This document shows positions 6,974 through 30,405 of a DNA stretch of 31,468 nucleotides, piece by piece. The notes under the pieces were generated by a model. The model ran no database searches. It worked only from the letters and a program-made list of their open reading frames with translations, and was not told the origin of the DNA. The translations under genes were made by a program, and so were the position numbers. Origin of the DNA: a virus. Location of the stretch: IMG/VR virus record IMGVR_UViG_3300021197_001518, positions 1 through 31,468 of that record, one strand, 5' to 3'. Each line of letters starts with the position of its first letter. The first letter of the stretch is position 1.

Positions 6974-7048
6974 TCTGATTTTGAAAAAATTGCAAACTAT
7001 TTATTATTGTGATAAAAACAATCTAGATTTTATAGGAGAATCCCTAGA

Positions 7049-9910: not shown

Positions 9911-9921
9911 AACAAAAATTG

Positions 9922-9935: not shown

Positions 9936-9957
9936 TACAAATAGGAGAAAACACATC

Positions 9958-10500: not shown

Positions 10501-10519
10501 ACTAACATTGAGGTGAACA

Positions 10520-11564: not shown

Positions 11565-11613
11565 GGATTTATTTCTTGCTTTTAACTAATTAGGACTAAG
11601 GAGATCTATCTTT

Positions 11614-12345: not shown

Positions 12346-12348
12346 ATA

Positions 12349-12675: not shown

Positions 12676-12690
12676 AGGAAACAATAGTGT

Positions 12691-14997
12691 ATGTCTGACG
12701 ATCCAAAAAAAATAAAAGAGCTAGGTGAAGAAACCCAAAAAGCCAAAGAAGCTTGGGAGGCATTCGCTAAAACGCTGAATCAAGCGGAAAAGGGATTGGA
12801 TGCGTTTAACGGCAGTGCCGAGACTACTTCAAAAGCGATGCGGGAAGCTGCTCGTGCAGGTGAGGGTCTGGGAGATACATTCGCGGGACTGCTTGGCATG
12901 GGCTCCGGCCTCAGTAAAACAATGGCTAATCTGGCCGAGGCAACCAACAATACAGAGAATCTTTTTAAGGGATTTACTAAGTCTATTGGGGCAAACTTTA
13001 ATGCCATGTCTGTAGGTGTTAGTATCGTAGAAAAAATGAAAGAAGCCACCCTTGGCCTAGTGTATGCCACTGACGCTGCTTTGGTATCATTTAATAAGCA
13101 AACCGGTGCAGCATCTCTTTATGGCTCAAAGATAGTAGAGATAGAAAAAAGAAATAGTGCTTTTGGCGTATCTATAGATGAAGTCGCAGATTCTCAAGCA
13201 GCCTTAGTTTCGGGTATAAAAAACTTTAACACCTTTTCTGATGATGCCCAGCTATCAATTTTGGAAACAACTTCTGTCCTAAATGAGCTTGGCGTAGAGT
13301 CGAGTGTAACCACTCAAAGCATAGGGTTTATGGTTAATTCTTTGGGCATGACAACTGACGCAGCAGAAAAAACAAGCAGAGAGATGTTTGTTTTGGCGCA
13401 AACTATGGGTCTGCCTCCACAAGAGATGGCATCCTCATTCAATGCAGCCGCTCCTCAATTAGCAGCTTTCGGAAACCAAGCTAGCGCAGTTTTTCAAAAA
13501 ATGGCTGTCAATGCCAAAGCCGCGAACATGGAAGTAGAAGATATGCTTAGAATTACAGAGCAGTTCGACAAATTCGATTCAGCAGCATCATCGGTTGGCA
13601 AGCTAAACGCCATTCTTGGTGGTCCCTATCTGAGCACTGTAAAGATGGTTACCACAACGGATCCTACAGAAAGACTTAGGATGATGTCTGATGCTGCAAG
13701 ACAAGCCGGGAAGTCTTTCGATACCATGAGTTATTATGAAAGAAAGATGACGGCTTCAGCAATGGGCCTCAAAGATGTGAGCGAGCTAGCCCTTGTCATG
13801 GGTAACCAGTTTAACTTAGCGGCCCCCAAAATACAAAAAACACAGGCTCAAATAATCGAGCTTCAAAAACAAACACAAGCATTCAATTCAATCGGGGAAG
13901 AATTTAATCAACTCATGCGTCAGTTTGCTGTTGAAATAGCGGTTCCAGTTATAAGTGTGCTTAAAACAATCATTAACCAATTAACTTATTTGGCCCAAAA
14001 TCCTCTGGCTTGGACAACAGCCGGCATAGGAGTTTTAACAGGGGCCATAATAACATTCATGGTTGCAACAGGTGGCGTGGGTGCAGTAGTGACCGCAGTC
14101 ATTACTGGAATTACTGGATTGATAATAATGATGAAAGGCATGTACGACATGATTATGAAATCCCAGCCGGCCTTAGACATATTCAGTTTGGTATGGGAAA
14201 AGATTACTCCTCAAGTAGAAAGACTGAAAGATATGTTTGGAAAATTACAATCTGGTACAGGAGATATGCAAAAATCCTTCGATGCGTTTGTCGTAGACTA
14301 CGCACCATATATTGGAGCATTTTTTGTAGCTTTTGCCGAATCTGTATTGAGCATAGCTGAAAACGTGATGATACTCGCACAAGTATATAAAGATTCTGGA
14401 TTTTTCACTGGTCTAGCCTATCTTGCGGGTGGAATCGTGGCCGCTTTCGGATTGATCGCTCTCGGCATAGCCAAGATAATACAGGGGCTTGTATACTTAA
14501 ACACGGTGCTCAATCCTCTCTATCACTTCTTTTATGTAGGAAACAGCCCTTCTTTTATTGAAGTCTTAGGAATGGTTGGTAATGCCTTTACTGCCATTGG
14601 AGACGCAATTAAGCATCCCATTCAGATGCTCGCCAAGATGCTATCAGGACTCAAAGACGTAGCAGGGGTTTTAGCCAGTAAAGCATTGGGGTTCTTAGGT
14701 GGTGCCATATCATACGTGTTCGGTGGCGCGTCTCCGCAGACAGAAGTCAGTAACGGAGGATTTAACAGACAAGAAGACATGGATTCAAAGAGTGTCTCCA
14801 TAGGTGAAGAGGTAGCTAGAGCCGTTAAGGAGGCATTACAGGGCGTTCAACTAAATAACAAAGTAGAGCTGGAAGTGACTTCGGCAAATGGCTTACCAAC
14901 ATTGTTTGACTTTATGCAGAAAAATATGGATGATGTTGCCTCTAATAGATCTCCAAACTTTGCCCTAAACGCAAGCAGGGCGGGAATAGGAAAATAA
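12691..14997 (+). CDS. Tape measure protein
   Basis: This 768-residue protein sets tail length and is ejected with DNA. It shows the usual layout: a polar helical N-terminal half rich in Ala, Glu and Lys ('LGEETQKAKEAWEAFAKTL'), then three hydrophobic segments at about residues 440-475, 535-562 and 570-605, rich in Gly, Ala and Ile, able to insert into a membrane. A final acidic/polar segment follows. It sits after the tail chaperone and tube genes and before LysM and hub genes, the standard order. The ribosome site is AAAGGAAA. No peptidase or lysozyme motif is obvious. Tail length is probably short to medium, since tape measure length scales with tail length. Confidence 0.85.
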   Translation: MSDDPKKIKELGEETQKAKEAWEAFAKTLNQAEKGLDAFNGSAETTSKAMREAARAGEGLGDTFAGLLGMGSGLSKTMANLAEATNNTENLFKGFTKSIGANFNAMSVGVSIVEKMKEATLGLVYATDAALVSFNKQTGAASLYGSKIVEIEKRNSAFGVSIDEVADSQAALVSGIKNFNTFSDDAQLSILETTSVLNELGVESSVTTQSIGFMVNSLGMTTDAAEKTSREMFVLAQTMGLPPQEMASSFNAAAPQLAAFGNQASAVFQKMAVNAKAANMEVEDMLRITEQFDKFDSAASSVGKLNAILGGPYLSTVKMVTTTDPTERLRMMSDAARQAGKSFDTMSYYERKMTASAMGLKDVSELALVMGNQFNLAAPKIQKTQAQIIELQKQTQAFNSIGEEFNQLMRQFAVEIAVPVISVLKTIINQLTYLAQNPLAWTTAGIGVLTGAIITFMVATGGVGAVVTAVITGITGLIIMMKGMYDMIMKSQPALDIFSLVWEKITPQVERLKDMFGKLQSGTGDMQKSFDAFVVDYAPYIGAFFVAFAESVLSIAENVMILAQVYKDSGFFTGLAYLAGGIVAAFGLIALGIAKIIQGLVYLNTVLNPLYHFFYVGNSPSFIEVLGMVGNAFTAIGDAIKHPIQMLAKMLSGLKDVAGVLASKALGFLGGAISYVFGGASPQTEVSNGGFNRQEDMDSKSVSIGEEVARAVKEALQGVQLNNKVELEVTSANGLPTLFDFMQKNMDDVASNRSPNFALNASRAGIGK

Positions 14998-15666
14998 ATG
15001 ACAGATTGCACAAACATATCCATATTTGACCCCTTTAATGCGGAAGAGTATCAGAATGATCTCATCATCCAGATGGTTGCGAGTCAGAAATATTTAATAT
15101 TTAAAGACGGCATCGACTCTTTTGACAGATCTTACAGCATCAATTGGGACTCTGTGAACGTATACGGAAGACAAGATGCAATCCAGACGTATCAGTCCAC
15201 AGGGGAGACCATTAACTTAAACTTTCCCGTAAAGCCTCGCGATAATCCTGATGAATTTAATCATCAGTTAGACGCTTTATTGGCTCTCGGAAAATTTGCA
15301 CGTCCATTTTATTCTGATAGTGGTAAGATAATGGAGTCTCCTATACTAAAAATTAGATTTAGAAATCTCATAGTAGAGGAATACAACGGAGGAAGCGGTA
15401 CCCCCTTGTGGATTGCCCCTACTGGTATTTCTGTTAATTATGGCGATAGGGCTAGGGACATTTTGGCACCAAATTCTGTAAAAAGAAAGTTGGTCGTACC
15501 AAAGAGGGTGGTAATCTCCATAAACGCAGCAGTTATTAATGTGGATAAAAAATATTATGATGAATCAGATTGGGGCTTTGGTTTTCAGGGAGACAACACA
15601 CCCGATGATCCCGATACCACGCAAGGTGAGGGAGCAGTTGCAAACCAGATGGGTAACAATAACTGA
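14998..15666 (+). CDS. Baseplate/tail protein with weak gpU-like signature
   Basis: The ATG follows the tape measure stop with no gap, so translation is probably coupled. The 222-residue product contains 'INWDSVNVYGRQDAIQTYQ' followed by 'STGETINLNFPV'. This resembles the 'W..RVGR.PA.QFTGPGEETITL' pattern of P2 gpU-type proteins that sit at the tape measure end of contractile tails. A 'LLALGKFARPFYSDSGKI' segment and strands up to about residue 185 follow, then an acidic Asp/Pro/Gln-rich tail likely to be disordered. I infer a baseplate or tube-end adaptor. The similarity is short and the call is tentative. Confidence 0.6.
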   Translation: MTDCTNISIFDPFNAEEYQNDLIIQMVASQKYLIFKDGIDSFDRSYSINWDSVNVYGRQDAIQTYQSTGETINLNFPVKPRDNPDEFNHQLDALLALGKFARPFYSDSGKIMESPILKIRFRNLIVEEYNGGSGTPLWIAPTGISVNYGDRARDILAPNSVKRKLVVPKRVVISINAAVINVDKKYYDESDWGFGFQGDNTPDDPDTTQGEGAVANQMGNNN

Positions 15667-15678
15667 TGGAGAAAGCAT

Positions 15679-16020
15679 ATGCCTTTTAGTAGATTATCTA
15701 ACAGAAATATATTTAGAAATGAAGATCTTTTATACGATGAGAAGTTTAAGGTCAAAAATTTGTCTGGAATAACACAATATAATACAGATACACTTACTTT
15801 TCCGTCGCGTCAAAAAACGTCACGGATGGCCTATGACACTAAGCTTTGGAAAACGGGTGATCGATTATACAAAATCGCTTTTGAAGTGTATGGTGACTCA
15901 AGATATTGGTGGGTAATTGCTCAATTTAATAAGAAGCCAACAGAACATCATTTCAAGGTAGGTGATACTTATTATATCCCGTTAAATCTCGAAGATGCTT
16001 TAAACTCCTTTGGATATTAA
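15679..16020 (+). CDS. LysM-like baseplate wedge protein (gp53-like)
   Basis: The 113-residue product carries a LysM-type or gp53-type segment from about residue 60: 'DRLYKIAFEVYGDSRYWWV' then 'IAQFNKKPTE' and 'VGDTYYIPL'. The 'YGD..YWWVIA..N' core is diagnostic of small baseplate proteins between tape measure and hub in contractile-tail phages. LysM folds bind peptidoglycan, and in T4 gp53 helps close the wedge ring around the hub. GGAGAA gives a good ribosome site. Assignment is well supported by motif and order. Confidence 0.82.
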   Translation: MPFSRLSNRNIFRNEDLLYDEKFKVKNLSGITQYNTDTLTFPSRQKTSRMAYDTKLWKTGDRLYKIAFEVYGDSRYWWVIAQFNKKPTEHHFKVGDTYYIPLNLEDALNSFGY

Positions 16021-19000: not shown

Positions 19001-19102
19001 ATAAATTTGAACGCTTTTGAAACGTCGATCGATGCTGTGTTTGAGACTTCTGGTGATGGAGTCTTTTCTTTGACATCAGAAAAAGAAGATGGGGGAAACT
19101 GA
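16043..19102 (+). CDS. Large baseplate hub-type structural protein
   Basis: A 1019-residue protein, likely the central baseplate hub. The N-terminal 350 residues are mostly helical and charged. The middle contains 'LSKLVPEIKLFKVIYDKN' and 'GIKSFSWEYKGSDPFSVD', then strand-rich sequence with 'LELYFQDFSEFTRDRPEGY'. The C-terminal 150 residues include 'MFGNNFFRPGSYIYVDPK' and 'GLGGYHIVTGVTNKI', the pattern of hub proteins whose beta-barrels continue the tail tube. It follows the LysM-like gene, as the hub does in related phages. It is much longer than T4 gp27 (391), so extra domains are fused. No lysozyme signature was seen. A TAGGAAAA ribosome site precedes the ATG. Confidence 0.7.
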   Translation: MSVQIPELIMTLINSGLGTTLVGWNYALYDAVQSVDLLKKQFGEDGLTQDQLSPWYEASIKDNFLNIYDDFGKDRTDLLDTESYTVTRTDESGARVTETFIRDKYPLVKSYKSLVEKEFGGAFYGEVSEFNSIFLNPNNSQNEKALTTNLNNSIRLNFTPSLSEAGTIFRDRIVYDSNDAVERGLKGATYLDVLKAYSLYLSLKNYSVVEEKIKTTTTTSGEKLEDDNLRRQIFRYLNDLEKRGTLAQRELGNFINDVADAQSAINASKFDKQRYLIENIETIQELSKERFKHQLSTADINFLDGEFGQLLGIEQTRILKFTNSSKNAVNRIVGASRATEMFRLPTVQLSKLVPEIKLFKVIYDKNLQKEKEVEIRFPTKFVGAERIDVDGQLSDNSNYKKPSLKDPYDFLGTKTGYGIKSFSWEYKGSDPFSVDRDIEATLELYFQDFSEFTRDRPEGYRYVDLLLPADEEKAPLDKVFNQGVRVKAGWAVPQSLEIESDGDAIDLDAYETNQKKINAIKASQVNLVLDMVDYNISFENNGNGASTIAINYRARTEALGKNRLVNVIGATREEAATTQYLEDKISTSKDPEEKEELRKRQQDLFERIRSLSSKRFIEKLMDNRSIYWRKLNLPETMASALGEKKGKEYFLIVRPEQTWKKKYIDGLKLSLDQLNPVGAGGVGPVAPVNVQDLELFTMVNDDSQIVNPTKIMYTFLGDILQVALENAVESGSYLGAPKSALEDLKLALLDFRVGEETYNLADLPIEMNVFLEFLHNSIGKRNEHTKSFINFTNELLSEILINRVDSYLNLKDATSRSFKIGYAEMNKELLGNFAKSYDLDRRSDVDTINKLDKQDNLFVYSDSPDPSSYKITNYEDSKENDEKNGLHHFSLGSTKGIVKNISFDRIDIEYIREQRLTVNPEDPYALLSNVFNVNVSMFGNNFFRPGSYIYVDPKIMGNLGNPWQVGTIANRMGLGGYHIVTGVTNKINLNAFETSIDAVFETSGDGVFSLTSEKEDGGN

Positions 19103-19103
19103 T

Positions 19104-20315
19104 ATGACTGACCTGAACCTTAACAACCAAACGTCTGTAGAAGAAACCTTTATTAAAAGACTGTTATACGATTTGCTGGCTTTCAATACACTAGAAGGAG
19201 CCAGCCTAGACAACCCAGCTGGTATCAAGGACTATTGGAAACTAGAAAATCTATTATTTGGAAAGGTAAAGCCCTCATTAGAGGTGATGCAACCACTCAA
19301 TACTTCTCTCGTTTCTATCCCCAACCAAGATAAGACTTACTTTACTTTCCCGGAAATTTCTGATAAATTTATATCTTTTCAAAATTCTTTTAGAATACCA
19401 TCTCAGTCCGGCAGGCTTTCAGAAGATATTTACTTAAACTCTCCAGAGATATACAGGGCCTTTGTTGATTCGGAATCCTCATATAACGAGGCTATGACAC
19501 TAATTTTAAGCAAATATAATGGAATTATTCTACAAAACTCGAAAGCAGAACAAGTAAAGAATATTAAAGATTACGCTGGATTATTTTTTAATTTTATCTT
19601 AGGCTCCAACATGTCTGAGAAGATAACTAAGACTTCTTTCATTTTGTCTAGTAAGGTATCTGCTATAAATTCTGGACTGTGTATCGAGATAGCTGACCTA
19701 GATCCGTCTAACAATGGTGATAAACAGTCATTTATTCAAGGAAGCAACTTCGAATTTTATCGACAAACAGCCGTAAACAATGGGTTTGTTATCGACAAGA
19801 ATATTCCGTGGAGAATAAACTTCGATTTGTCATCCCCAGTTACTCCTGATAGAGATTACTTTTTAGATAGAAACTTTTCAGAGACACGTCAAGGGGACTT
19901 GGATGCATTAATATCTCTTGTTGTGGTTGGGTACAATTCTCTTGTAAGGCAGAAAAACTATTATATGGAAGGCCGATGCAAGTACGCAAGATTTCCTATT
20001 GACAAGGAAGTAGTACTCAGGGATGTATTATCTACCAGCTATTGGATAAAAAGGTATTGTCAAATCAGGAACTGGGAATCTGGAAACATATATACGACTT
20101 CTGAAATTGAAAAGATGGCTCAAATCGCTATTGACCTTGACGATACTTTACTATCTTATGTTAGTTCTAAATTTAGAATCCCTTATTTATTTGAGGGATC
20201 CACTGTTTATCGAGATCTCAAGAAATATTATTTAGAAAAAAACAACATTTCACTTGACAATTTCTCTGAACATGTTAAAATAATAGTAAAGAATTCGATA
20301 AACAAAATATATTGA
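19104..20315 (+). CDS. Unknown protein at the end of the structural block
   Basis: I do not recognise this 403-residue protein. I chose the ATG at 19104 over the one at 19089 because GGGGGAA (19091-19097) is correctly placed for it and it starts 1 nt after the hub stop. Visible features are a helical N-terminus, 'IKDYAGLFFNFILGSNM' in the middle, 'VDSESSYNEAMTLILSKY' and a tyrosine-rich C-terminal half ('TSYWIKRYCQIRNWESG'). There is no signal peptide, Walker motif or clear repeat. The place after the hub suggests a virion protein. The last part of the gene also holds a sigma-70 promoter for the polymerase. Confidence 0.65.
   Translation: MTDLNLNNQTSVEETFIKRLLYDLLAFNTLEGASLDNPAGIKDYWKLENLLFGKVKPSLEVMQPLNTSLVSIPNQDKTYFTFPEISDKFISFQNSFRIPSQSGRLSEDIYLNSPEIYRAFVDSESSYNEAMTLILSKYNGIILQNSKAEQVKNIKDYAGLFFNFILGSNMSEKITKTSFILSSKVSAINSGLCIEIADLDPSNNGDKQSFIQGSNFEFYRQTAVNNGFVIDKNIPWRINFDLSSPVTPDRDYFLDRNFSETRQGDLDALISLVVVGYNSLVRQKNYYMEGRCKYARFPIDKEVVLRDVLSTSYWIKRYCQIRNWESGNIYTTSEIEKMAQIAIDLDDTLLSYVSSKFRIPYLFEGSTVYRDLKKYYLEKNNISLDNFSEHVKIIVKNSINKIY
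20254..20281 (+). promoter_or_regulatory. Sigma-70 promoter upstream of the DNA polymerase gene
   Basis: TTGACA (20254-20259), a 16-nt spacer ending in TGT and TAAAAT (20276-20281) match the consensus 11 of 12 with an extended -10 element. The predicted start lies about 35 nt before the polymerase TTG. It marks the change from structural to replication genes, as expected for an early or middle host-read promoter. A weaker copy with the same spacing is at 20725-20752 inside the polymerase gene. Confidence 0.65.
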
Positions 20316-20322
20316 GGCTTGC

Positions 20323-21507
20323 TTGTTGTTCCAAACACTCGACGATAAAAAAGAATGTGTCGGCATATATCATGCTGGAGAACTTTCCTTCAAAGATGGA
20401 CTTCCAAAAGATCTAGAAAAGACATGGGCCTATTCAGCTTTTCTGCAAGATCGAGATATTGAATATGCTAAGATTTATTGTGGGGGAAATACACTCGATA
20501 AAGCATGTCCGGAGGCCCTGAGAGGCCGCTGGGAAGCAGTATCAAATAAACTTAAAGCTTTTATCAAGTCTTTTGGTACATCGCGTGTATCGCTAAATGA
20601 GAGCTGTTTTTTCGATTTAGTTCCTCAAAAGTTTCTTTTAGAGTATTGCTATACAAAAGATCTTATTTGTCAACACGTTTTCGAAACATACCAAAAGCCA
20701 GACAACTACGATTACCTTCTGGAATTGACAAAAATTATTGAAGAAATAAAATATAATAGATTGAATTTAAATGTGAAAAACCTATCACTGTATCGAGCAA
20801 AGCATCGAAAGTTTTTAAAGAAATTAAAAACTCTACAGCCCTATTGTAAGTTTAATATCTGGGGAACCAAGACAGGCCGACTTACGACAATCGCAAAGAG
20901 TTTTCCTATACTGACCATGGATAAGGAATTCAGGAGTATCATAGAGCCAAAGAATGATTATTTTGTGGAATTGGACTTCAATGCAGCAGAGCTAAGAACA
21001 TTGCTTTCCCTACAAGGCCGAGATCAGCCGCCTGAAGATATGCATGAGTGGAACATTAAAAACGTCTTCAAGGGAGATCTCACTAGAGCAGAGGCTAAAA
21101 AGAGAATATTTGCTTGGTTATATAATCCAGAAAGTCACGATCCTTTGTGCGAACACGCTTATGGGAGAGAGTCAGTGACACAAAAGTACTTCACACAGGG
21201 TCAGGTGACAACCTTTTGGGGCAAAATCATTCCATCAGAGAAGAGAACAGCACTAAATTATATTATTCAGTCAACTTGTGCTGAAAATGTACTGAGACAA
21301 ATGATAAAGCTAGCTAATTACTTAGAGGGGTGTAAATCGTATGTTGCTTTTCCGATCCATGATTCTGTTGTATTGGACTTTTCAATCGAGGACAAAGAAA
21401 GACTCGGAGAAGTCATAAACATTTTTGCAAATACAGAGCTTGGAAAATTCAAGGTAAATGTAAGTGTCGGAACAAACTTCGGCAATCTTCAAAAGCTGGA
21501 GGTTTAG
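20323..21507 (+). CDS. polA: Minimal family A DNA polymerase, polymerase domain only
   Basis: The gene starts at TTG, with TGAGG overlapping the previous stop. The 394-residue protein has the ordered motifs of family A polymerases: 'GTKTGRLTT' (TGR at 184-186); motif A 'ELDFNAAELRTL' with catalytic D218; a shortened fingers region with motif B 'RAEAKKRIFAWLY' (R255, K259, F263, Y267); 'ALNYIIQSTCAENVLRQM'; and motif C 'FPIHDSVVLDF' with H346 and D347. The usual HDE is HDS here, so one carboxylate is missing. There is no 3'-5' exonuclease domain. The length is well below that of E. coli Pol I (928) or T7 gp5 (704), so proofreading must come from another protein or be absent. It is the likely replicative polymerase, given gp32, helicase and RecA nearby. 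It ends with no gap before the tubulin-like gene. Confidence 0.9.
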   Translation: MLFQTLDDKKECVGIYHAGELSFKDGLPKDLEKTWAYSAFLQDRDIEYAKIYCGGNTLDKACPEALRGRWEAVSNKLKAFIKSFGTSRVSLNESCFFDLVPQKFLLEYCYTKDLICQHVFETYQKPDNYDYLLELTKIIEEIKYNRLNLNVKNLSLYRAKHRKFLKKLKTLQPYCKFNIWGTKTGRLTTIAKSFPILTMDKEFRSIIEPKNDYFVELDFNAAELRTLLSLQGRDQPPEDMHEWNIKNVFKGDLTRAEAKKRIFAWLYNPESHDPLCEHAYGRESVTQKYFTQGQVTTFWGKIIPSEKRTALNYIIQSTCAENVLRQMIKLANYLEGCKSYVAFPIHDSVVLDFSIEDKERLGEVINIFANTELGKFKVNVSVGTNFGNLQKLEV

Positions 21508-22335
21508 ATGAACGTTATTGGTCTTGGTAATGCTGGGTGCAATATTGCAGATTCGTTTGCGCAGTATCCACAATATAAAATATTTAAAATAAATGTTGAC
21601 ATGGAGGGAAAAGACTGTTATAATATACCTATACTTGAGACAGCGGAAGAGTACGAATCTTATGATTATCCAAAAATACGATCATTCTTTAAAGGAGTTA
21701 AGGGCGAAACCCTCTTTATCATCGGCGGATCTGGTAAAATCTCCTGCGGCTCTCTTAAAATACTCGAAAACATTAAAAGACTTCCAGTTTCCATCCTATA
21801 CATTCAACCAGATTTAGATATGCTAGACGACACACAAAAAAGCCAAGAAAAACTTGTACGAAACGTCATTCAAGAATATGCCCGTTCGGGTATTTTTGAG
21901 AAAGTTTGTTTGATCTCGAATAACTCTTTAGATAAGATCCTCGGTGGTGCACCCGTTATTGGATACTTCGATGCCTTAAACGAACTTCTAGTACCTTCTT
22001 TACACATGGTGAACTTCTTTTCTAAAAACAAGGCTGTATCTGGTGCAATACCAAAAGCAAAGAACACACACCGAATTTATACAGTTGGAATCTTCGATAC
22101 TCAAAAAAATGAAGAAAAAATGTTTTTTCCCCTTGACAACAGCAGAAATAAATGTTATATTTATGGTGTAAGCGAAGAAAAGTTAAAGACCGACAAAAAA
22201 CTAATGAATAAGATCAAAAAACAAATTGAGTCAAAAAAAGAAGAGAATCTTGATATCTCATACGCAATTTATCCAACAGACTACGAATACGACGTAGGCT
22301 ATGTTGTAGAAAGAACTCCTGTTATTCAAAACTAA
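21508..22335 (+). CDS. Divergent tubulin/FtsZ-superfamily protein
   Basis: The 275-residue protein begins 'MNVIGLGNAGCNIADSF', matching the first nucleotide loop of FtsZ ('GVGGxGxNAV'), followed by 'INVD' where FtsZ has 'NTD'. 'TLFIIGGSGKISCGSLKIL' (loop at about 73-81) sits where FtsZ has 'FIAAGMGGGTGTGA', and 'LPVSILYIQPDLDML' where FtsZ has 'TVAVVTKPF'. 'VCLISNNSLDKILGGAPV' and 'IGYFDALNELLVPSLHMV' then match 'ITIPNDKLL' and 'DAFxxANDVLxxxVxGI'. A C-terminal domain follows ('YIYGVSEEKL', ending in strands). The glycine loop is degraded and no catalytic Asp of the T7 loop is visible, so GTP binding or hydrolysis may be lost or changed. PhuZ and TubZ are known phage/plasmid tubulins. It is co-transcribed with the polymerase. 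Fold inference is good, function is unknown. Confidence 0.65.
   Translation: MNVIGLGNAGCNIADSFAQYPQYKIFKINVDMEGKDCYNIPILETAEEYESYDYPKIRSFFKGVKGETLFIIGGSGKISCGSLKILENIKRLPVSILYIQPDLDMLDDTQKSQEKLVRNVIQEYARSGIFEKVCLISNNSLDKILGGAPVIGYFDALNELLVPSLHMVNFFSKNKAVSGAIPKAKNTHRIYTVGIFDTQKNEEKMFFPLDNSRNKCYIYGVSEEKLKTDKKLMNKIKKQIESKKEENLDISYAIYPTDYEYDVGYVVERTPVIQN
21596..21624 (+). promoter_or_regulatory. Perfect sigma-70 promoter inside the tubulin-like gene
   Basis: TTGACA (21596-21601), 17-nt spacer and TATAAT (21619-21624), all consensus, plus TGT immediately before the -10. It lies about 90 nt into the tubulin-like gene and would drive an mRNA for gp32 with a leader of about 800 nt. A chance 12/12 match with ideal spacing and TGn is very unlikely. 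Confidence 0.65.
22133..22161 (+). promoter_or_regulatory. Near-perfect sigma-70 promoter upstream of gp32
   Basis: TTGACA (22133-22138), 17-nt spacer ending TGT and TATATT (22156-22161) match 11 of 12 bases. It lies within the 3' part of the tubulin-like gene and points at the gp32 gene, giving a leader of about 265 nt. High early production of ssDNA-binding protein is consistent with a dedicated strong promoter. Confidence 0.72.
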
Positions 22336-22433: not shown

Positions 22434-23204
22434 ATGGCATTAGACATCGCACGAATTCGAGCACGACTCGACAATGTAAAGAACAACGGCAAAGCTGGAG
22501 GATCATTCTGGCGGCCAAAAGATGGAACTCAAACAATCCGAATTGTCCCAACGCAAGATGGCGACCCCTTCAAGGATTACTGGTTCCACTACAATCTAGG
22601 CCCAGATCAACGCGGCGGCCTTCTATGTCCCAAGAAGAACCATGGAGATGATTGTCCAATTTGTGACTTCAAAGACCAGCTTTGGAAAGAATTTAATGAC
22701 ACCCAAGACCAAGACACGATGAAGATGGCAAAAGATTTGTCACCACGTCAACGTTTCTTTTCACCCGTCCTAGTTCGTGGTGAAGAGGCCGAAGGCATTC
22801 GAGTGTGGGGTTACGGCAAAGAGGCTTATACTTCTCTGCTAAACTTGGTCCTTAACCCAGAATACGGAGATATTACCGATGTTGATGCTGGTACTGATCT
22901 GACTTTGACTTATGGGAAGCCACCCGGAGCTAGCTTCCCTAAGACAACCCTCACACCTCGCCGTCGCGCAAGTCAGCTTTGTGACGAAGCTGTCGGCGGT
23001 GATGAAGAGTGTACTCGACTCTTGGATAATATTCCAAGCTTTGACAATCTCTTCCAAGTCAAGAGCGCAGATGATGTTCAACAAGCCTTGGACGGCTTTA
23101 TCGCCTCTCTTGAAGGCGAGACAGAAGGCTCTGTATCAGAACTAGTAGTCAACGAAGGGACACCTGATGTCCTCGCTGCTTTTAACGAGTTGACCGGTAA
23201 CTAA
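22434..23204 (+). CDS. gp32: gp32-like single-stranded DNA-binding protein
   Basis: The 256-residue protein has the gp32 layout: an N-terminal basic cooperativity segment ('IARIRARLDNVKNN'); 'FWRPKDGTQTIRIVPT' opening the OB-fold; a zinc-binding set C65, H70, C74, C77 ('CPKKNHGDDCPIC'); and 'FFSPVLVRGEEAEGIRVWG'. An acidic C-terminus follows that in T4 recruits helicase, polymerase and UvsX. T4 gp32 has 301 residues, so this is slightly short. It coats replication and recombination intermediates. AGAGGAAA gives a good ribosome site, and a hairpin leader and dedicated promoter lie upstream. A terminator ends the unit at 23225. Confidence 0.93.
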   Translation: MALDIARIRARLDNVKNNGKAGGSFWRPKDGTQTIRIVPTQDGDPFKDYWFHYNLGPDQRGGLLCPKKNHGDDCPICDFKDQLWKEFNDTQDQDTMKMAKDLSPRQRFFSPVLVRGEEAEGIRVWGYGKEAYTSLLNLVLNPEYGDITDVDAGTDLTLTYGKPPGASFPKTTLTPRRRASQLCDEAVGGDEECTRLLDNIPSFDNLFQVKSADDVQQALDGFIASLEGETEGSVSELVVNEGTPDVLAAFNELTGN

Positions 23205-23276: not shown

Positions 23277-23780
23277 ATGACAACTGAAAAGACTAAAACA
23301 AATACGCTTACAACAGCAACCGAGGGAGCAGATGCTACCGTCCACTATCGAGGTACTTTGGTGGAGGATGGCAGTGAATTTGACAACTCACATACCCGTG
23401 GAGAGCCGATCACTTTCACTGTTGGGTCCGGACAAATGATTCCGGGATTCAACAACGCAGTGGATGGTATGACAGTGGGAGAAACAAAGACTGTTACTCT
23501 TTCACCTGATCAAGCCTATGGGGATCTAAATCCAGAAGCTAAAACAACTTTTCCCAAATCTGGCTTTCCTGATGGAGTTGACTTGCGGGAAGGCATGGCA
23601 GTGCCTCTGCGAGCACCAAACGGACAAACTCTTATTGGTCGATTGACCGAATTTCAAGAAGACACGGTAACCGTTGACTTGAATCACCCGCTAGCTGGAC
23701 AAGCTCTTCAGTTTGAAATTGAGCTTGTAGAAGTTACAACCACTACCACCACTTCAACCGATGAGGAAATCGCTACCTAA
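23277..23780 (+). CDS. SlyD-like FKBP peptidyl-prolyl isomerase
   Basis: The 167-residue protein contains a full SlyD-type FKBP: 'EGADATVHYRGTLVEDGSEF' then 'DNSHTRGEPITFTVGSGQM' and 'IPGFNNAVDGMTVGETK', an inserted flap domain at about 85-135, and the hallmark 'DLNHPLAGQALQFEIELVEV'. It speeds proline isomerisation and, through the flap, holds unfolded proteins. The metal-binding His-rich tail of E. coli SlyD is absent and replaced by a Thr-rich acidic tail. The first 20 residues are also Thr-rich. AGAGGAAAA precedes the ATG. Near-identical terminator repeats lie on both sides. Bacterial-type FKBPs are uncommon in phages, so acquisition from a host is inferred. Confidence 0.92.
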   Translation: MTTEKTKTNTLTTATEGADATVHYRGTLVEDGSEFDNSHTRGEPITFTVGSGQMIPGFNNAVDGMTVGETKTVTLSPDQAYGDLNPEAKTTFPKSGFPDGVDLREGMAVPLRAPNGQTLIGRLTEFQEDTVTVDLNHPLAGQALQFEIELVEVTTTTTTSTDEEIAT

Positions 23781-23848: not shown

Positions 23849-24043
23849 ATGAATATTCTTAAAGAAAACCGAGTTGTTTCAAACTCTTTTATTGTTGCAA
23901 CACTTCTTTCCATCACCTTATCAATTGCAATTTGGGCAGGTGCTACCGGAGAAAGTCTTGAACAAACCCAGAGGCTTGCTCTCTTCGTTGGCCTTTGGGC
24001 TCCCACCTTTATGGGTTTTGCAAATTATTATAAGGAGGAGTAA
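23849..24043 (+). CDS. Small two-helix membrane protein
   Basis: The 64-residue protein starts at ATG 23849 with TAGGAG; an earlier TTG at 23810 lies inside the terminator stem and is unlikely. Two hydrophobic helices at about residues 12-31 ('SFIVATLLSITLSIAIWAG') and 43-58 ('LALFVGLWAPTFMGFA') are joined by a polar turn with Gln and Glu. There is no cleavable signal peptide. It overlaps the uvsX start by 1 nt (TAATG), so the two are translationally coupled. No family is recognised. A role in the host inner membrane is inferred from hydropathy only. Confidence 0.75.
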   Translation: MNILKENRVVSNSFIVATLLSITLSIAIWAGATGESLEQTQRLALFVGLWAPTFMGFANYYKEE

Positions 24044-25161
24044 TGGCAAGAAAAGCAACTTCATCTGCTGGAAAGCTTTCTATGGCAGACATGAAAAAGA
24101 TGATCAATAAGAAAGCGGGCATGAATGTTGCTCACGATCTGAACGAGGCAAACCCAACAGAGGTTACTCAGTGGATTCCTACAGGATCTCGATGGCTTGA
24201 TTCAATTATATGCAGAGGAAAGTATGCGGGAATTCCAGTTGGGAAAGTATCCGAAATTGCTGGATTGGAGGCGACAGGTAAATCCTACATGGCAGCTCAA
24301 ATTGCTGCCAATGCCCAAGATATGGGGATTGATGTCGTTTATTTTGATTCAGAATCGGCGATTGATCCCTCGTTTCTTGAAAACGCTGGCTGTGATTTGA
24401 CAAGGCTTCTTTACGTGCAGGCACAGTCGGTTGAGTTTGTGCTTGAAACCATTGAGGACCTCTTGGCATCAGAAAACCAGATGTTATTTATCTGGGACTC
24501 TTTGGCTTTGACACCTGCTGTTAGTGAAGTCGAAGGCAGCTTCGATCCTATGTCGCAGATGGCGATGAAGGCAAGAATTCTTGCACGAGCTATGTCTAAA
24601 CTTGCACTGCCAATTGCAAATGCGAATGCAACACTGCTTGTTCTGAACCAATTGAAAACAAACATTACTCGCATTGCAGCCGAAGCTATGACTACACCGT
24701 ATGTCACACCCGGAGGGAAAGCCATGGCTTATGCCTACTCTCTCCGGGTTTGGTTGACAGGCCGCAAAGCAAAGGCAAGCTTTGTTCTCGACGACAACGG
24801 CTTTCGAATTGGGTCTGAAGTAAAAGTCAAACTTGAAAAGTCCCGCTTTGGAACCGCTGGCCGCCGATGTAACTTCCGAATCTTGTGGGGAGGAGACAGT
24901 GTAGCAATTCAAGATGATGAATCTTTGTTTGATGCAGTGAAATCTTCGGACAATATTCTTCAATCTGGTGCTTGGTACACCATGGTCTTCGAAGATGGGA
25001 CAACAGAAAAGTTCCAAGCAGCCAAATGGGTTGAGAAGATGCAAAACGATAAGTTTCGTCAGCGTGTTTATCAGATTATTGATGAGGAAGTCATTATGAA
25101 ATTTGATCAGCGTCAGGGCAGTGCATCCGATTTCTATGACTCTGAAGAAGAAGCAGACTAA
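24043..25161 (+). CDS. uvsX: UvsX/RecA-type recombinase
   Basis: This ATP-dependent strand-exchange protein acts in recombination-dependent replication and repair. The 372-residue product has Walker A 'GLEATGKS' (74-81), Walker B 'LFIWDS' (D152), 'LNQLKTNI' at about 201 and an L2-like 'TPYVTPGGKAMAY'. The first 40 residues form a polymerisation-type basic helix. Length is close to T4 UvsX (391) and E. coli RecA (353). The acidic C-terminus ('DFYDSEEEAD') is typical. The gene overlaps the upstream membrane protein by 1 nt. It should work with gp32 and the helicase encoded on either side. Confidence 0.93.
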   Translation: MARKATSSAGKLSMADMKKMINKKAGMNVAHDLNEANPTEVTQWIPTGSRWLDSIICRGKYAGIPVGKVSEIAGLEATGKSYMAAQIAANAQDMGIDVVYFDSESAIDPSFLENAGCDLTRLLYVQAQSVEFVLETIEDLLASENQMLFIWDSLALTPAVSEVEGSFDPMSQMAMKARILARAMSKLALPIANANATLLVLNQLKTNITRIAAEAMTTPYVTPGGKAMAYAYSLRVWLTGRKAKASFVLDDNGFRIGSEVKVKLEKSRFGTAGRRCNFRILWGGDSVAIQDDESLFDAVKSSDNILQSGAWYTMVFEDGTTEKFQAAKWVEKMQNDKFRQRVYQIIDEEVIMKFDQRQGSASDFYDSEEEAD

Positions 25162-25169: not shown

Positions 25170-25790
25170 ATGGAAGATTCGTTTCTAAAAATTAAATATG
25201 ATAAGCTTATGTTTGATATAAAATATTTAGAAGCGGATCTGAAATACTGCAACTCTATACTAGAAAAGGCAACGCCTCAGTTTAGTGCTAAGTGTCGAAT
25301 CAAGATAGAGGAAATGGGGATGTCTAAGTACTTCTTTGGAGATGAAAACAGAGCTGATCAATCTACTGAAAAAGCTCCCAAAGAAGTGAAGCCAAAAGTT
25401 TCCCCCTCCAAAGCGGTAGATAGTCTTTATAAAAAGGTCGTGACAAAGACGCATCCAGATAAGCTATTAAACTTGGAGGGGGAAGAACTTGAAAAGAGAA
25501 AAGATCTGTTTGCAGAAGCTACAAAAGCGAAAGATGAAGATAACCTTATGAAGTTGCATATAATTGCTTCTGAGTTGAATATAGAATTACCAGACTTAAC
25601 TTTTGAAGATATGATTTCTTTCGAAAAGATCTCCGAAGAACTTAAGAAAAAAATCAAACATAGAAAATCCACATGGATGTGGACGTGGGTAACTTCGTCT
25701 TCCAAGCGGCAAGAAGAGATGATGGAAAAGTATGTCGGAGCCATGATATCCGACGTTGAAAAGAAACTTAAAAACAATACGGAAGAATAA
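25170..25790 (+). CDS. J-domain (DnaJ-like) protein
   Basis: The 206-residue protein has a basic J-domain at about residues 80-135: 'LYKKVVTKTHPDKLLNLEG' with the HPD motif at 95-97, followed by a charged helix, 'FAEATKAKDEDNLMKLHII'. J-domains stimulate DnaK (Hsp70) ATPase and deliver substrates. The N-terminal 75 residues are a charged helical segment, and the C-terminal 60 include 'KSTWMWTWVTSSSKRQEEM', then acidic helix. There is no zinc-finger or substrate-binding domain of canonical DnaJ, so targeting must come from the novel flanks. The start has only a weak site (GGTAG). The gene overlaps the 5' nuclease by 1 nt. A DnaK-recruitment role in replication is inferred. Confidence 0.75.
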   Translation: MEDSFLKIKYDKLMFDIKYLEADLKYCNSILEKATPQFSAKCRIKIEEMGMSKYFFGDENRADQSTEKAPKEVKPKVSPSKAVDSLYKKVVTKTHPDKLLNLEGEELEKRKDLFAEATKAKDEDNLMKLHIIASELNIELPDLTFEDMISFEKISEELKKKIKHRKSTWMWTWVTSSSKRQEEMMEKYVGAMISDVEKKLKNNTEE

Positions 25791-26761
25791 TGACAGACAC
25801 AAAAAAGCGTTTGATGGTTGTAGATGCCCTCAACGCATATTTTCGAGCTTATATCGTAGACCCTAGCCTTTCTCAGAACGGCCAACCAATTGGAGGCTAC
25901 AAAGGTTTTGTCAAGATTCTTCAAAAATTATGTAGAGAAATGCGTCCGGACGAAATTATCATTGCTTGGGACGGCGCAGGCGGTTCACAAAAGAGAAGAG
26001 CAACTAACAAGAACTACAAAGAAGGGCGCAAGCCTATTAGATTCAATAACAAGCTTTCTAATACTCTGACAGAGGCGCAAGAGCTACAAAATAAAATATG
26101 GCAACAACACCGCTTGATGGAAATGTTAAATGAAATGCCGTTTATTCAAATCGTTAGTGATGGTATCGAAGCAGATGATGTGATTTCTTATGCTGTCCAG
26201 AATCACAAATATAAAGGCTGGCAAAAGATCATTATATCCAGTGACAAAGACTTCTTTCAGCTATGTGACGATGAGACAGTTTTATATAGACCTATTCAGA
26301 AAACTTTCGTAAACAAGCCTAGAATCTTGGAAGATCACGGGATTCACCCAACAAATTTTGCACTAGCTAGGGCAATCGCTGGTGATAAATCAGATAACTT
26401 AGAGGGTGTTCGTGGTGTCGGCCTTAAGACAATAGCAAAAAAGATGACTTTCTTTGCCAGTGAGGAGCCTGTTACCTTCAATGATCTTTATGAATATTGC
26501 GAGAATGATAATACTGGCCTTAAAGCGTTCTCCGCAATCCTCGAATGCCGTGACACGATTCAGGATAATTATAAGATTATGCAATTATATTCTCCGGCAA
26601 TATCTATTCAGACAAAGAACAAGATTCAATACGCTCTGGATAATTTTGAGCCCCAATTTAATAAGACAGAAGTAATCAAAAGAATGAGAGAAGACGGATT
26701 CGGCGAATGGAACACATCAGATATTTTCGCCATTTGTAAAAGAATTACAAGTAATGCTTGA
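25790..26761 (+). CDS. 5'-3' exonuclease/RNase H of the FEN family
   Basis: The 323-residue enzyme removes RNA primers and flaps during lagging-strand synthesis. Metal-binding acidic clusters are visible: D12 in 'VVDALNAYF', 'AWDGAGGS', 'GIEADDVIS' (D129, D130) and 'SSDKDFFQL' (D152, D154). The helix-three-turn-helix 'GDKSDNLEGVRGVGLKTI' starts at residue 198 and includes the conserved D199 and D202. Size matches T4 rnh (305). It overlaps the J-domain gene by 1 nt. It complements the polymerase, which lacks any nuclease domain. The last codons overlap the -35 box of the helicase promoter. Confidence 0.92.
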   Translation: MTDTKKRLMVVDALNAYFRAYIVDPSLSQNGQPIGGYKGFVKILQKLCREMRPDEIIIAWDGAGGSQKRRATNKNYKEGRKPIRFNNKLSNTLTEAQELQNKIWQQHRLMEMLNEMPFIQIVSDGIEADDVISYAVQNHKYKGWQKIIISSDKDFFQLCDDETVLYRPIQKTFVNKPRILEDHGIHPTNFALARAIAGDKSDNLEGVRGVGLKTIAKKMTFFASEEPVTFNDLYEYCENDNTGLKAFSAILECRDTIQDNYKIMQLYSPAISIQTKNKIQYALDNFEPQFNKTEVIKRMREDGFGEWNTSDIFAICKRITSNA

Positions 26762-26806: not shown

Positions 26807-28174
26807 ATGTCGAAGGAAGACTTTAGCCAATACGGTAAAGATTTCCAAGAAAGTTTATGTCACTTGATGCTCATCGACCGGCCATTTGCCGACCAGATGT
26901 ATGAAGTAATCGACATAAACTTTCTAGAATTAAAATATTTACAAACATTTGTTAAGCTGGTGCAGGTATACCGCGAGAAGTTTGGCGTTCATCCAAGCGA
27001 AGATATCATGAAAACGGTTATAAGATCCGAACTTGGTAATGAGTTAGATTCTGTACAGCAACAAATCCGAAACTTCTTCGCAAGAATCTATCGAGCAGAT
27101 GTGGGAGATTCTGAATATATTAAGGCGACCTCTCTTGATTTCTGTAAGAAACAAAAGTTAAAAGCCGCGATGCTCCGATCTGTAAAGCTTCTGGAAAAAT
27201 CATCTTTTGATGAAATCTCGCAAGAGATTAACGAGGCTTTAAAGCTTGGCGCGGATTCCAACCATGGCCACGACTACATCAAGGACTTTGAGCAAAGATT
27301 TATTTTCAAGGCCCGAAGCCCAGTTCAGACAGGGTGGGAGGAAATAGACAAAATCACCCATCAAGGTCTTGGGAATGGCGAGTTGGGTGTTGTAATTGCG
27401 CCAACCGGCGCGGGAAAGAGCATGGCTTTAGTACACATTGGTGCCCAAGCCTTGATGGATGGCAAGAACGTCCTCTATTATACTCTTGAATTGTCTGATA
27501 CTGTCGTTGGTTCAAGGTTCGATAGCTGTATAACTAAGGTTCCCCTTAATGACTTAAAGCACTTCAAGAAGGAGATCTATAAAAAGGTTCAAGAGATAGA
27601 GGGAAATCTTATCGTAAAAGAATATCCCACCAAATCTTCTTCGGTGGCAACATTAAAGAATCATTTAGAAAAAGTAATCACCAGAGGTTTCAAGCCCGAC
27701 ATCATTCTTGTAGATTATGCCGATCTTCTTCGCCCCATTTCTACTTTAAGAGAGAAAAGACATGAATTGGAGACTATTTATGAACAGCTCCGGGGTTTGG
27801 CACAAGAATACAAATGTTGTGTTTGGACTGCTTCGCAGACAAATAGGTCTGGCCTTAACGCCGAAGTCATTACTATGGAATCGATTAGCGAAGCTTTTAA
27901 CAAGTGTTTCGTAGCAGATTTCATTTTATCAATTTCAAGAACAGCGGAAGACAAATTGAGCAACAACGGTAGAATATTCATAGCAAAAAATAGAAATGGA
28001 GAAGACGGTATTATCTTTCCAATCTACATGAACACTTCGAATATTACAATCAAGGTCTTGCCTAGCTCCGGAGAGACAGTAGGCGAAGTGCAGAAGGAAG
28101 CCAAAAAGAGGCAAGAGACCAAACTAAAAGAGAAGTATGCACAATTTAAAAGTAAAAATAAGGGGAAAAAATAA
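26807..28174 (+). CDS. dnaB: DnaB-type replicative helicase (gp41-like)
   Basis: The 455-residue protein is a hexameric DNA helicase. An N-terminal helical domain (1-165) that would bind primase is followed by the RecA-type core: 'TGWEEIDKITHQGLGNGEL', Walker A 'APTGAGKS' (198-205), 'VLYYTLELSD', Walker B 'ILVDYADLL', a 'WTASQTNRSG' switch region and an 'IFIAKNRNG' arginine-finger region. Length fits T4 gp41 (475). A lysine-rich C-terminal tail follows. It has its own promoter and a strong ribosome site, and ends overlapping the RNR start by 1 nt. A separate primase was not seen in the window. Confidence 0.93.
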   Translation: MSKEDFSQYGKDFQESLCHLMLIDRPFADQMYEVIDINFLELKYLQTFVKLVQVYREKFGVHPSEDIMKTVIRSELGNELDSVQQQIRNFFARIYRADVGDSEYIKATSLDFCKKQKLKAAMLRSVKLLEKSSFDEISQEINEALKLGADSNHGHDYIKDFEQRFIFKARSPVQTGWEEIDKITHQGLGNGELGVVIAPTGAGKSMALVHIGAQALMDGKNVLYYTLELSDTVVGSRFDSCITKVPLNDLKHFKKEIYKKVQEIEGNLIVKEYPTKSSSVATLKNHLEKVITRGFKPDIILVDYADLLRPISTLREKRHELETIYEQLRGLAQEYKCCVWTASQTNRSGLNAEVITMESISEAFNKCFVADFILSISRTAEDKLSNNGRIFIAKNRNGEDGIIFPIYMNTSNITIKVLPSSGETVGEVQKEAKKRQETKLKEKYAQFKSKNKGKK

Positions 28175-30405
28175 TGTCATTAAATACACTACAAGAATAT
28201 ACGAGAATCGCAAAATATGCTAAATACTTGCCTGAAGAGAACCGAAGGGAGACTTGGAAAGAACAAGTCGATAGGGTTTTCGACATGCATAGGGAATACT
28301 TCAAAGAGCATCCAGAAGTAATGCCTCATATTGAATTTGCTGCAAGTGCGGTTCTCAAAAAAGACATTCTTGGCTCGCAAAGAATCCTGCAATTTGGGGG
28401 TACTCCCATTTTTAAGCATAATGCGAGAGTGTATAACTGTGGCTTTGGACATATCAACCGACCACGGGCATTCCAAGAGTTGATGTACTTGCTTCTTTGC
28501 GGCTGCGGTATTGGATTTTCTGTACAGAAACATCATATTTCACAACTGCCACCCGCAACAAAGCGGGGAGAAATTATTGAAAAGACCTATCTAGTACCAG
28601 ATACTATTGAGGGGTGGGCTGATGCTATTGGTGTTCTTATTGCAAGCTATATGGGTGGAATTCCCGAATTTGATGAATACATTGGGGAAAAAGTTGTTTT
28701 TGATTATTCAAACATCCGTCCTGCCGGTGCTCCCTTATCTTCTGGTGCCAAGGCTCCCGGTCCAGATGGCCTCCGCCGCTCTATTGAAAAGATTGAAGAA
28801 ATATTTGAAAAGAGTCTTTCAAAAGCCAGAACAGTAAAGATGCGCCCACTTGAAGTGTATGATATAATCATGCACGCAGCAGATGCTGTTATCTCTGGCG
28901 GAGTTCGTCGCTCCGCAACGATTGCACTTTTCTCTCCAGAAGACGAAGAGATGGCCACAGCAAAGACGGGCAACTGGTTTATTGAAAACCCACAACGAGG
29001 CAGGTCCAATAACAGTGCTTTACTTGTACGTGATGAAACTTCGAAAGAAACATTTAATAAATTAATGTCTTGCGTTAAAGAATACGGCGAGCCGGGTTTT
29101 GTCTGGGCAGAGAGCACGGAGATGGGATTCAACCCCTGTGTCGAGATCGGACTATACCCTGTTGATGTTGAGACTGGGAAGTCGGGTTGGCAGTTCTGCA
29201 ATTTGGCAGAAATCAATGGCAAGAGGGCAAACACAGAAGAAAAATTCTATGAGGCTTGCAGAGCAGCAGCTATTGTGGGCACGCTTCAGGCATCTTACAC
29301 AAGTTTTCCTTACGTTGGGGAGACGACAGAGAGGATTACAAGGCGAGAAGCCCTATTGGGTGTCTCCATTACGGGCATGATGGACAATCCGGAAGTTCTT
29401 TTTGATCCCCAAATTCAGAGAAACGGTGCAAAGATCGTAAAGGACACCAATAGAGAGATCGCATCAATCATTGGAATAAATCCAGCTGCAAGAACTACTT
29501 GTGTCAAGCCCGCCGGCTCCACAAGTTGTATTCTAGGTACTGCAAGTGGCATTCATCCACACCATGCTAAGAGATATTTTCGTCGTGTGCAAGCAAATGT
29601 TCAAGAGAATCCTGTTCAGCATTTCAAACAAATCAACCCAAGGGCCGTTGAGACCTCGGTATGGGATCCGAATGGTGTAACAGAAGTGATCACATTCTTA
29701 TGTGAAGTTCCAGTAGGGGCAAAGACAAAGAATCAGATTGATGCATCAAAATTATTGGAAAGTGTCAAGCTAACACAACAGAACTGGGTTCGCTACGGAA
29801 CAAATAAAGAGTTATGTACACAGCCATGGCTGAGTCATAATGTTTCGAATACTATCCATGTCAGACAAGACGAATGGGATTTGATTGAAGATTACATCTA
29901 TCAAAATAAAAAATACTTTGCCGGCATCGCGTTGATTCCAAATTCAGGAGATAAGGACTATCCGCAGGCTCCGTTCTGCGCAGTCCCATATGGTACGGAC
30001 ATTTACCGCGAGTATGGTGACGGTGCTTTCTTCGCTTCAGGAATTATCGAACAGGGCCTAGAAGCATTCGACAAGAACTTGTGGGCCGCCAGCGATTGTC
30101 TACTGGGTGTTGGTGAGCCAATCGAGCAAGCCAGTTGGGTAAAGAGAGAGTGGATTAACGCAGCGATTAAATTTGCTGACAGTCATTTCGACGGAGAGGT
30201 CCGAAAGATGACTTATTGTCTAAAAGATATTTACAACCTTAAGCTTTGGGAAAAGTTGAATAAGGAGTACAAGGATGTCGATTGGACAGCTATGAGTGAG
30301 CAGGAAGATAATATTGATTTTGGGCAGGAATCTGCTTGCGCCGGCGGTGCTTGCGAGATGCCAGAAGAGTACCTTGAAGCCTTAAGGGGCACAAACAACA
30401 AATAA
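28174..30405 (+). CDS. nrdJ: Class II adenosylcobalamin-dependent ribonucleotide reductase
   Basis: It makes deoxynucleotides using vitamin B12 radical chemistry, so it needs no oxygen or second subunit. The 743-residue length matches the monomeric RTPR of Lactobacillus leichmannii (739). Active-site elements are C89 ('VYNCGFG'), the radical Cys C322 and E324 in 'NPCVEIGLYP', C342 ('WQFCNLAEI') and the C-terminal redox pair C722/C727 ('CAGGAC'). The 'TCVKPAGSTS' nucleotide/phosphate loop is also present. No NrdB-like radical-generating subunit or NrdD activase is near, as expected for class II. It depends on host cobalamin. The gene is read with the helicase. Confidence 0.93.
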   Translation: MSLNTLQEYTRIAKYAKYLPEENRRETWKEQVDRVFDMHREYFKEHPEVMPHIEFAASAVLKKDILGSQRILQFGGTPIFKHNARVYNCGFGHINRPRAFQELMYLLLCGCGIGFSVQKHHISQLPPATKRGEIIEKTYLVPDTIEGWADAIGVLIASYMGGIPEFDEYIGEKVVFDYSNIRPAGAPLSSGAKAPGPDGLRRSIEKIEEIFEKSLSKARTVKMRPLEVYDIIMHAADAVISGGVRRSATIALFSPEDEEMATAKTGNWFIENPQRGRSNNSALLVRDETSKETFNKLMSCVKEYGEPGFVWAESTEMGFNPCVEIGLYPVDVETGKSGWQFCNLAEINGKRANTEEKFYEACRAAAIVGTLQASYTSFPYVGETTERITRREALLGVSITGMMDNPEVLFDPQIQRNGAKIVKDTNREIASIIGINPAARTTCVKPAGSTSCILGTASGIHPHHAKRYFRRVQANVQENPVQHFKQINPRAVETSVWDPNGVTEVITFLCEVPVGAKTKNQIDASKLLESVKLTQQNWVRYGTNKELCTQPWLSHNVSNTIHVRQDEWDLIEDYIYQNKKYFAGIALIPNSGDKDYPQAPFCAVPYGTDIYREYGDGAFFASGIIEQGLEAFDKNLWAASDCLLGVGEPIEQASWVKREWINAAIKFADSHFDGEVRKMTYCLKDIYNLKLWEKLNKEYKDVDWTAMSEQEDNIDFGQESACAGGACEMPEEYLEALRGTNNK

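Follow-up and report, generated by a model that had tools for sequence, protein, structure and literature searches.

Members of the tubulin superfamily are known as filament formers, acting in division, in the positioning of plasmid and phage DNA, and in microtubules. CetZ, an archaeal member, possesses the T7 loop and H8 helix together with the full glycine motif. The catalytic motif of T7 in the superfamily is NxDxx[D/E]. In the accessible parts of the literature, phage tubulins are of the PhuZ/TubZ type and come from jumbo or lysogenic phages (PMC6302109, PMC7824862, PMC12583498, PMC9123017, PMC3678025), with two distinct FtsZ/tubulin representatives reported in jumbo phages (PMC7824862). 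The portions of text available describe TubZ of Bacillus plasmids as polymerising and moving extrachromosomal DNA (PMC5322520), and phiKZ TubZ as a protein that forms a canonical protofilament and whose GTPase site is competent (PMC3678025). According to the same partial sources, the canonical protofilament contact is made by T7, the base of H8, and S9, the catalytic Asp lies in T7 (PMC3678025), and the glycine loop signature of the superfamily is GGGTG[T/S]G (PMC12583498).

In the present study, a tubulin-like gene was investigated in a virus record of 31,468 bases, here called the window. Many phages have annotated tail sheath proteins that match the tail sheath gene of the window, at less than 60 % identity, and the source is therefore taken to be a divergent myovirus. 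The gene, at 21508-22335 on the + strand, has an ATG start and a TAA stop and encodes a protein of 275 aa, named ZLP here. The family is large: including that of the window, 140 distinct ZLP sequences were found in the loci examined, a few of them partial and some near-identical. Literature searches, whose coverage of subscription journals and preprints is thin and whose sources were available in part, returned no description of this family.

The preliminary description of this gene, made from its letters, had listed five ordered blocks resembling FtsZ/tubulin landmarks, and the reading frame and all five blocks are present where it placed them: a T1-like loop, GLGNAGCNI (21520-21546), INVD (21589-21600), a degenerate T4 or glycine loop, GGSGKISCG (21724-21750), ISNNSLDKI (21913-21939), and thereafter the helix of residues 153-172 (21964-22023), all on the + strand. 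They are not a product of chance, given the 140 distinct sequences, the low dN/dS, and the tubulin/FtsZ fold that is predicted for the protein. Against four relatives, dN/dS is 0.056-0.070, a value that is indicative only since dS, at 1.1-2.4, is saturated. Judged on these alignments, ZLP is under purifying selection.

The preliminary description had proposed structure prediction and profile searches for judging the likeness to tubulin and FtsZ. The first of these bears it out. From an alignment of 65 sequences, AlphaFold2 gave a model of ZLP with a mean pLDDT of 95.4 and a pTM of 0.92. This 65-member alignment (A2), like those of 30 (A4) and 19 (A5) members, was hand-picked, with fragments and near-duplicates excluded. 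When the model was compared with solved structures using Foldseek, there were 540 matches at E<=0.001, the best at 4.5e-12, and the 50 listed are all FtsZ or TubZ. In VIA-align, all 733 chains aligned to the model have Z>=8. The best structural match is archaeal CetZ (3zid, 4b45), with chain 3zid_B aligned over 255 residues (Z 24.5, rmsd 2.9), followed by TubZ of Bacillus plasmids (2xka_A, Z 23.4; 4ei7, Z 22.9), which has the same fold, FtsZ (Z 21.8), and tubulin (Z 21.5). Identity in these structural alignments is about 10-19 %. Eight viral models match at E<=0.001: two FtsZ or cell division proteins, one tubulin, one PhuZ, that of phage Noxifer, and four that are unnamed or uncharacterised. 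The two-domain arrangement with the joining helix H7 is present in ZLP, as seen in the confident model and the whole-length matches to PDB structures.

The results of the profile searches are mixed. The ZLP profile matches an FtsZ profile, built from the FtsZ of Escherichia coli, that of a WOR-3 bacterium, and one phage FtsZ-like protein, with a probability of 87 % and E 3.8e-6, an E-value that, like the others of this kind, refers to one comparison and not to a database. The register is kept from T1 to H7 and the match ends at T7. As a control, the ZLP profile was compared with the polymerase profile, giving 0.9 % and E 0.062. In single-sequence Pfam scans of the 65 members, on the other hand, Tubulin is matched by 8 of 65 at E<=1 (best 0.0014), fewer than match the generic Rossmann family TrkA_N (16 of 65, best 0.0053).

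These scans would suit a protein of some other Rossmann type, unrelated to tubulin, as would the weak result obtained when the phage FtsZ-like family was compared by itself (2 %, E 0.024). Sequence-only searches of the window ZLP also gave no tubulin match: it has zero matches at the curated cut-off of Pfam PF00091, and searches of Pfam, PHROGs, NCBIfam, PADLOC, and PDB sequences returned nothing convincing, nor did a seven-member ZLP profile against PDB sequences or PHROGs scans of the 65 members. Such an origin is nevertheless highly improbable, as the fold match is whole-length and takes in the C-terminal domain (Z 24.5), the 50 Foldseek matches listed are without exception FtsZ or TubZ, and the FtsZ profile match is in register. 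On the basis of the model, it is the fold rather than the motifs that decides the assignment. ZLP almost certainly has the predicted tubulin fold and is probably a member of the tubulin/FtsZ superfamily by descent, for which the support from sequence is modest.

Conservation was counted over 137 distinct near-full sequences, that of the window included. The glycines of the T1-like loop are nearly invariant (weighted G5.99, G7 1.00, G10.99), and Q122, R126, and S127 each have a weighted conservation of 1.00. In the profile alignment, N138 (21919-21921, + strand) falls on the Asn of FtsZ loop T6 (PND), and in the helix equivalent to H7 (residues 153-172) N158 falls on the H7 Asn; in FtsZ both of these residues contact guanine. 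Both positions are Asn in 130 of the 137 sequences, both are lost in six (L150, L153, L165, L203, L214, and L215), and N138 alone is lost in one (L188), so nucleotide binding is not universal in the family. Their loss together would suit a linked pocket, and it is probable, from this pattern of residues, that most members bind guanine nucleotide and that a minority do not. In the C-terminal domain, the motif EKMFF[SP]LD (22114-22137, + strand) is also conserved (weighted E203.86, F206.96, F207.82, L209.90, D210.80) and is a candidate contact surface.

The elements that the family lacks are those of the filament. Between H7 and the next strand there is a short link at the position of the FtsZ T7 loop and H8 helix (residues 172-189; 22024-22074, + strand), 18 aa long in 137 of 137 sequences, where E. 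coli FtsZ has about 58 residues between comparable landmarks, T7 and H8 among them. The ZLP model has no helix at the H8 position. The preliminary description had seen no catalytic Asp of the T7 loop, which now extends to the whole family, NxDxxD being absent from residues 160-199 in every sequence (0/137). The degradation that it saw in the glycine loop is likewise true across the family: GGGTG[T/S]G is replaced by GGSGKIS in the window, with weighted conservation of.88 for G74,.78 for G76, and.83 for S79, and the loop decays further in diverged members. With T7 and H8 gone, neither canonical protofilaments nor GTP hydrolysis at a shared site would be expected, and it is very probable that ZLP builds no canonical protofilaments.

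The same elements separate ZLP from each of its described relatives. CetZ, unlike ZLP, is neither phage-encoded nor part of a replication cluster and retains T7 and H8; these are also absent from ZLP by comparison with TubZ, beside which ZLP is a protein of just 275 aa. FtsZ shares the fold and the in-register T1, T6, and H7 landmarks, whereas its glycine and catalytic motifs are not found in ZLP, which has no division context. PhuZ and phiKZ TubZ of jumbo phages are, like ZLP, phage-encoded proteins of tubulin fold; however, PhuZ phages carry a shell gene and ZLP lacks T7/H8.

ZLP might still be a cytomotive tubulin of the PhuZ/TubZ kind, which through a non-canonical filament contact would position or segregate phage DNA and whose place among replication genes would reflect the timing of its expression. 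It has a full-length tubulin fold, and the T1 loop and guanine Asn positions are kept in most members. In the sources, as far as they are accessible, the tasks suggested for phage tubulins are the centring of virions or the partitioning of phage genomes (PMC3678025), and that suggested for PhuZ is the positioning of DNA (PMC4244570). Such a role is unlikely for ZLP, however, because T7 and H8, which the accessible text of PMC3678025 names as elements of the canonical interface, are deleted in 137 of 137 sequences. The chain of the window protein also stops 5 residues past the last strand of its model, with no PhuZ-type H11 helix and tail, and some relatives are longer by up to about 16 residues.

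The shell gene was sought as well. None had been seen in the window in the preliminary description, and among eight large ZLP contigs (147-204 kb), possibly fragments, none has a match to chimallin with 201phi2-1 gp105 as the query; this query recovers the phiKZ shell gene at 5e-138. A PhuZ-like nucleus-type role is therefore unlikely. Restriction to one polymerase clade, described below, would also be unexpected for a partition gene, and PhuZ-like DNA positioning by ZLP is less likely than partnership with the polymerase.

A second FtsZ-like protein, Z1, was found in 33 loci in viral contigs. It is 402 aa long and canonical, and, unlike ZLP, it keeps the T4 stretch GGGGGTGS and the T7 stretch FDSKDL. 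Both proteins belong to the tubulin superfamily, both are from uncultured phages, and they co-occur in the contigs G001 (151 kb; Z1 at L087 937-2145) and G004 (82 kb; Z1 at L086 1036-2085), where Z1 lies about 31-33 kb 5′ of ZLP and, in G001, adjoins an ORF that by eye is prohead-protease-like. Z1 is present in 2 of 13 ZLP contigs and in 1 of 10 large ones (three contigs are common to both sets, and these may be fragments). Among 14 contigs chosen for Z1, many of them fragments, neither ZLP nor its clade of polymerase was found (0/14 for each), and the phage collection gave no match to Z1. As Z1 is found in few ZLP contigs, it was rejected as an obligate partner of ZLP as a general rule. A further FtsZ-like locus, L122 4001-5662, has a duplicated start with intervening stops, and is either a partial duplication or a disturbed copy.

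The co-occurrence of ZLP with a canonical FtsZ-like protein in those two of the 13 contigs would suit a decoy that acts during infection to stop cell division, by capping or poisoning host FtsZ or a phage filament. By its geometry, a monomer with a nucleotide face and no T7/H8 could cap one end of a filament. That ZLP acts in this way is quite improbable: identity in the structural alignments is only about 10-19 %, the FtsZ-like partner is missing from 11 of the 13 contigs and from 9 of the 10 large ones (with the same reservations on fragments and shared contigs), and placement between the polymerase and the single-strand DNA-binding protein in every relative is not what one would expect of a gene for host takeover.

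In the window, ZLP follows a compact family-A DNA polymerase of 394 aa with a TTG start (20323-21507; PF00476, E 1.2e-12), and is followed by a gp32-like single-strand DNA-binding protein (SSB; 22434-23204; PF08804, E 1.9e-12), a RecA/UvsX-like recombinase (24043-25161; PF00154, E 9.1e-35), a 5′-3′ exonuclease (25790-26761; PF02739, E 4.6e-28), a DnaB-like helicase (26807-28174; PF03796, E 6.9e-21), and a ribonucleotide reductase that is B12-dependent-like (28174-30405; PF02867, E 9.4e-7; PF21995, E 4.2e-6). Upstream of the polymerase lies a 408-aa protein of unknown function (19089-20315), which all 88 loci with room possess. All of these genes are on the + strand. The 408-aa protein is fast-evolving, with a median distance of 1.89 against 0.78 for the polymerase, and has a weak match to an endonuclease PHROG (E 0.016). 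In the interval between SSB and RecA, the window also has an FKBP/SlyD-like peptidyl-prolyl isomerase, recognised by eye, at 23277-23780.

Across the family, the tie to the polymerase that had been noted in the window holds throughout, with ZLP 3′ of the compact polymerase in 99 of 99 loci with enough flank and the gp32-like SSB 3′ of ZLP in 96 of 96 with room. Where there is room, the surrounding cluster includes RecA (37/37), the exonuclease (28/29), and DnaB (4/5). The ZLP-led search, from which 80 of 109 relatives were kept, is matched by a polymerase-led profile search, in which at least 599 stretches were matched and ZLP was the next gene in 80 of 80 loci, these being the best 80 of at least 581 relatives; 12 of the 80 contigs were already in the ZLP-led set. 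Insertions between the polymerase and ZLP or SSB were also seen, among them a Nudix-like ORF, recognised by eye (L203 1947-2360), and a 793-aa ORF (L146 2025-4406).

In the polymerase, motifs A (D218..E223), B (R255, K259, F263, Y267), and C (H346 D347) are intact. D218, R255, K259, Y267, H346, and D347 are present in 30 of 30 polymerases compared, and E223 and F263 in 29. Its model has a Pol I-like fold and aligns with the Bacillus Pol I large fragment over 353 of 549 residues (Z 24.9). The polymerase is much shorter than this fragment, and its length would allow at most a remnant of the exonuclease domain.

At the junction with the polymerase there is no gap, as had been reported: the polymerase stop TAG occupies 21505-21507 and the ATG of ZLP begins at 21508. 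A GGAGG within the end of the polymerase gene (21498-21502, + strand), 5 nt before this ATG, resembles a ribosome-binding site and may serve as one. The description of ZLP as fused to the polymerase does not hold, as these are two genes with a stop codon between them. Five other zero-gap loci end the polymerase with TAA and most junctions differ, thus the in-frame TAG is not conserved. Since stop codon and junction vary between relatives, literal fusion and programmed readthrough of the TAG were ruled out. In 132 loci, after removal of duplicates and of loci with no usable start, and with script-assigned starts, the ZLP start overlaps the polymerase gene in 62, lies 0-20 nt from its stop in 36, 21-400 nt in 19, and farther in 15; it is thus overlapping or within 20 nt in 98 of 132 and beyond 20 nt in 34.

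Folded as one chain through the stop, polymerase and ZLP gave a pLDDT of 92.9 and a pTM of 0.65, with good domains whose relative position is not fixed and no direct indication that the two touch, a reading limited by the short artificial link. Pairwise distances in 35 loci correlate for polymerase and ZLP (r 0.84) no more highly than for polymerase and SSB (r 0.89), which co-inheritance explains, and co-evolution by distance correlation was therefore dropped as a sign specific to ZLP.

Of ten loci reached through a diverged polymerase, seven have ZLP and three (L220-L222) do not. A sister polymerase clade, retrieved with L220 and comprising 77 loci, has ZLP in 0 of the 62 loci with at least 2 kb past the polymerase, although SSB lies within 4 kb in 33 of these. 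With the profile of the ZLP-clade polymerase, the sister clade scores 32-90 bits, compared with at least 435 for the seven diverged loci that bear ZLP. A large inserted frame was seen in one sister-clade locus (L245 6249-8540).

Searches of the phage collection by tblastn found zero relatives of ZLP or of the window polymerase. With a diverged member of the polymerase family, ten records were weakly matched, four of them immuto. This Immutovirus (Flavobacterium phage vB_FspM_immuto, NC_055915) has the same cluster order, with family-A polymerase, SSB, RecA, exonuclease, DnaB, and ribonucleotide reductase; however, within the bases searched (1-16000) its polymerase-SSB interval holds two other small genes and not ZLP. 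A split ZLP in immuto was rejected, as neither small gene matches the ZLP profile. ZLP was also not found in the searched stretches of the 484-kb LR756508 and of Mel-JY01. Proteins of 151 aa in immuto (L223 1346-1801) and 129 aa in LR756508 (L225 10224-10613), alike by eye, occupy the interval from polymerase to SSB in which ZLP was not found, and are possibly another polymerase-linked accessory. Beyond viral contigs there is one ZLP relative, in the WOR-3 metagenome-assembled genome CP070664.1, in which ZLP belongs to a short segment of phage replication genes (L094 5505-10864) with masked stretches and with flanks that look bacterial by eye; this segment in the chromosome is a prophage remnant or an assembly error.

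The preliminary description had suggested a task in replication or DNA positioning. The unbroken neighbourhood favours the former, and the latter is disfavoured because none of the 137 sequences retains the element with which tubulin-like proteins make protofilaments. A role with the polymerase is favoured since the lost filament interface agrees with how strictly ZLP is tied to one polymerase, although shared timing may by itself account for the gene order. That ZLP is a partner of the polymerase or the replisome is put at even chances, and the same balance applies to the reading of it as a reduced, non-filamentous, probably guanine-nucleotide-binding accessory of a single clade of compact family-A polymerases.

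ZLP might instead be a regulator, or a sensor of dGTP or GTP, that tunes the polymerase or the nucleotide supply and is not a stable subunit of the replisome. The guanine-contact positions are conserved and the hydrolysis element lost, and the cluster includes a ribonucleotide reductase (at 28174-30405, as above). Retention of the gene in the six sequences with neither Asn stands against this, and the proposal is rather unlikely.

In the preferred reading, as an accessory of the polymerase, ZLP would be a tubulin trimmed to a non-filamentous form and dedicated to one polymerase clade. It would form no canonical protofilaments and would not hydrolyse GTP through the usual shared active site, and GTP or dGTP would be bound as a structural or sensing ligand. 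ZLP would contact the polymerase or SSB, and the small polymerase would thereby be helped to stay on DNA or be recruited. Other phage polymerases depend on such help, T7 gp5 needing thioredoxin and T4 gp43 needing the gp45 clamp. In the eight ZLP contigs of 147-204 kb, which may be incomplete, there was no match to the gp45 clamp families (PF02916 and PF09116) or to family-B polymerase (PF00136), with T4 positive as the control for each, and immuto likewise gave zero matches to either. More specifically, and with somewhat less than even confidence, ZLP may be a tubulin-fold replisome subunit, a processivity or recruitment factor in which guanine nucleotide is structural or sensing, in phages for which no gp45-type clamp was found.

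If this reading is true, ZLP would be a replication accessory of a new kind, in which the tubulin fold has a non-cytoskeletal use in a widespread phage family, and it raises the question of what a tubulin that has neither T7 nor H8 does for a polymerase.
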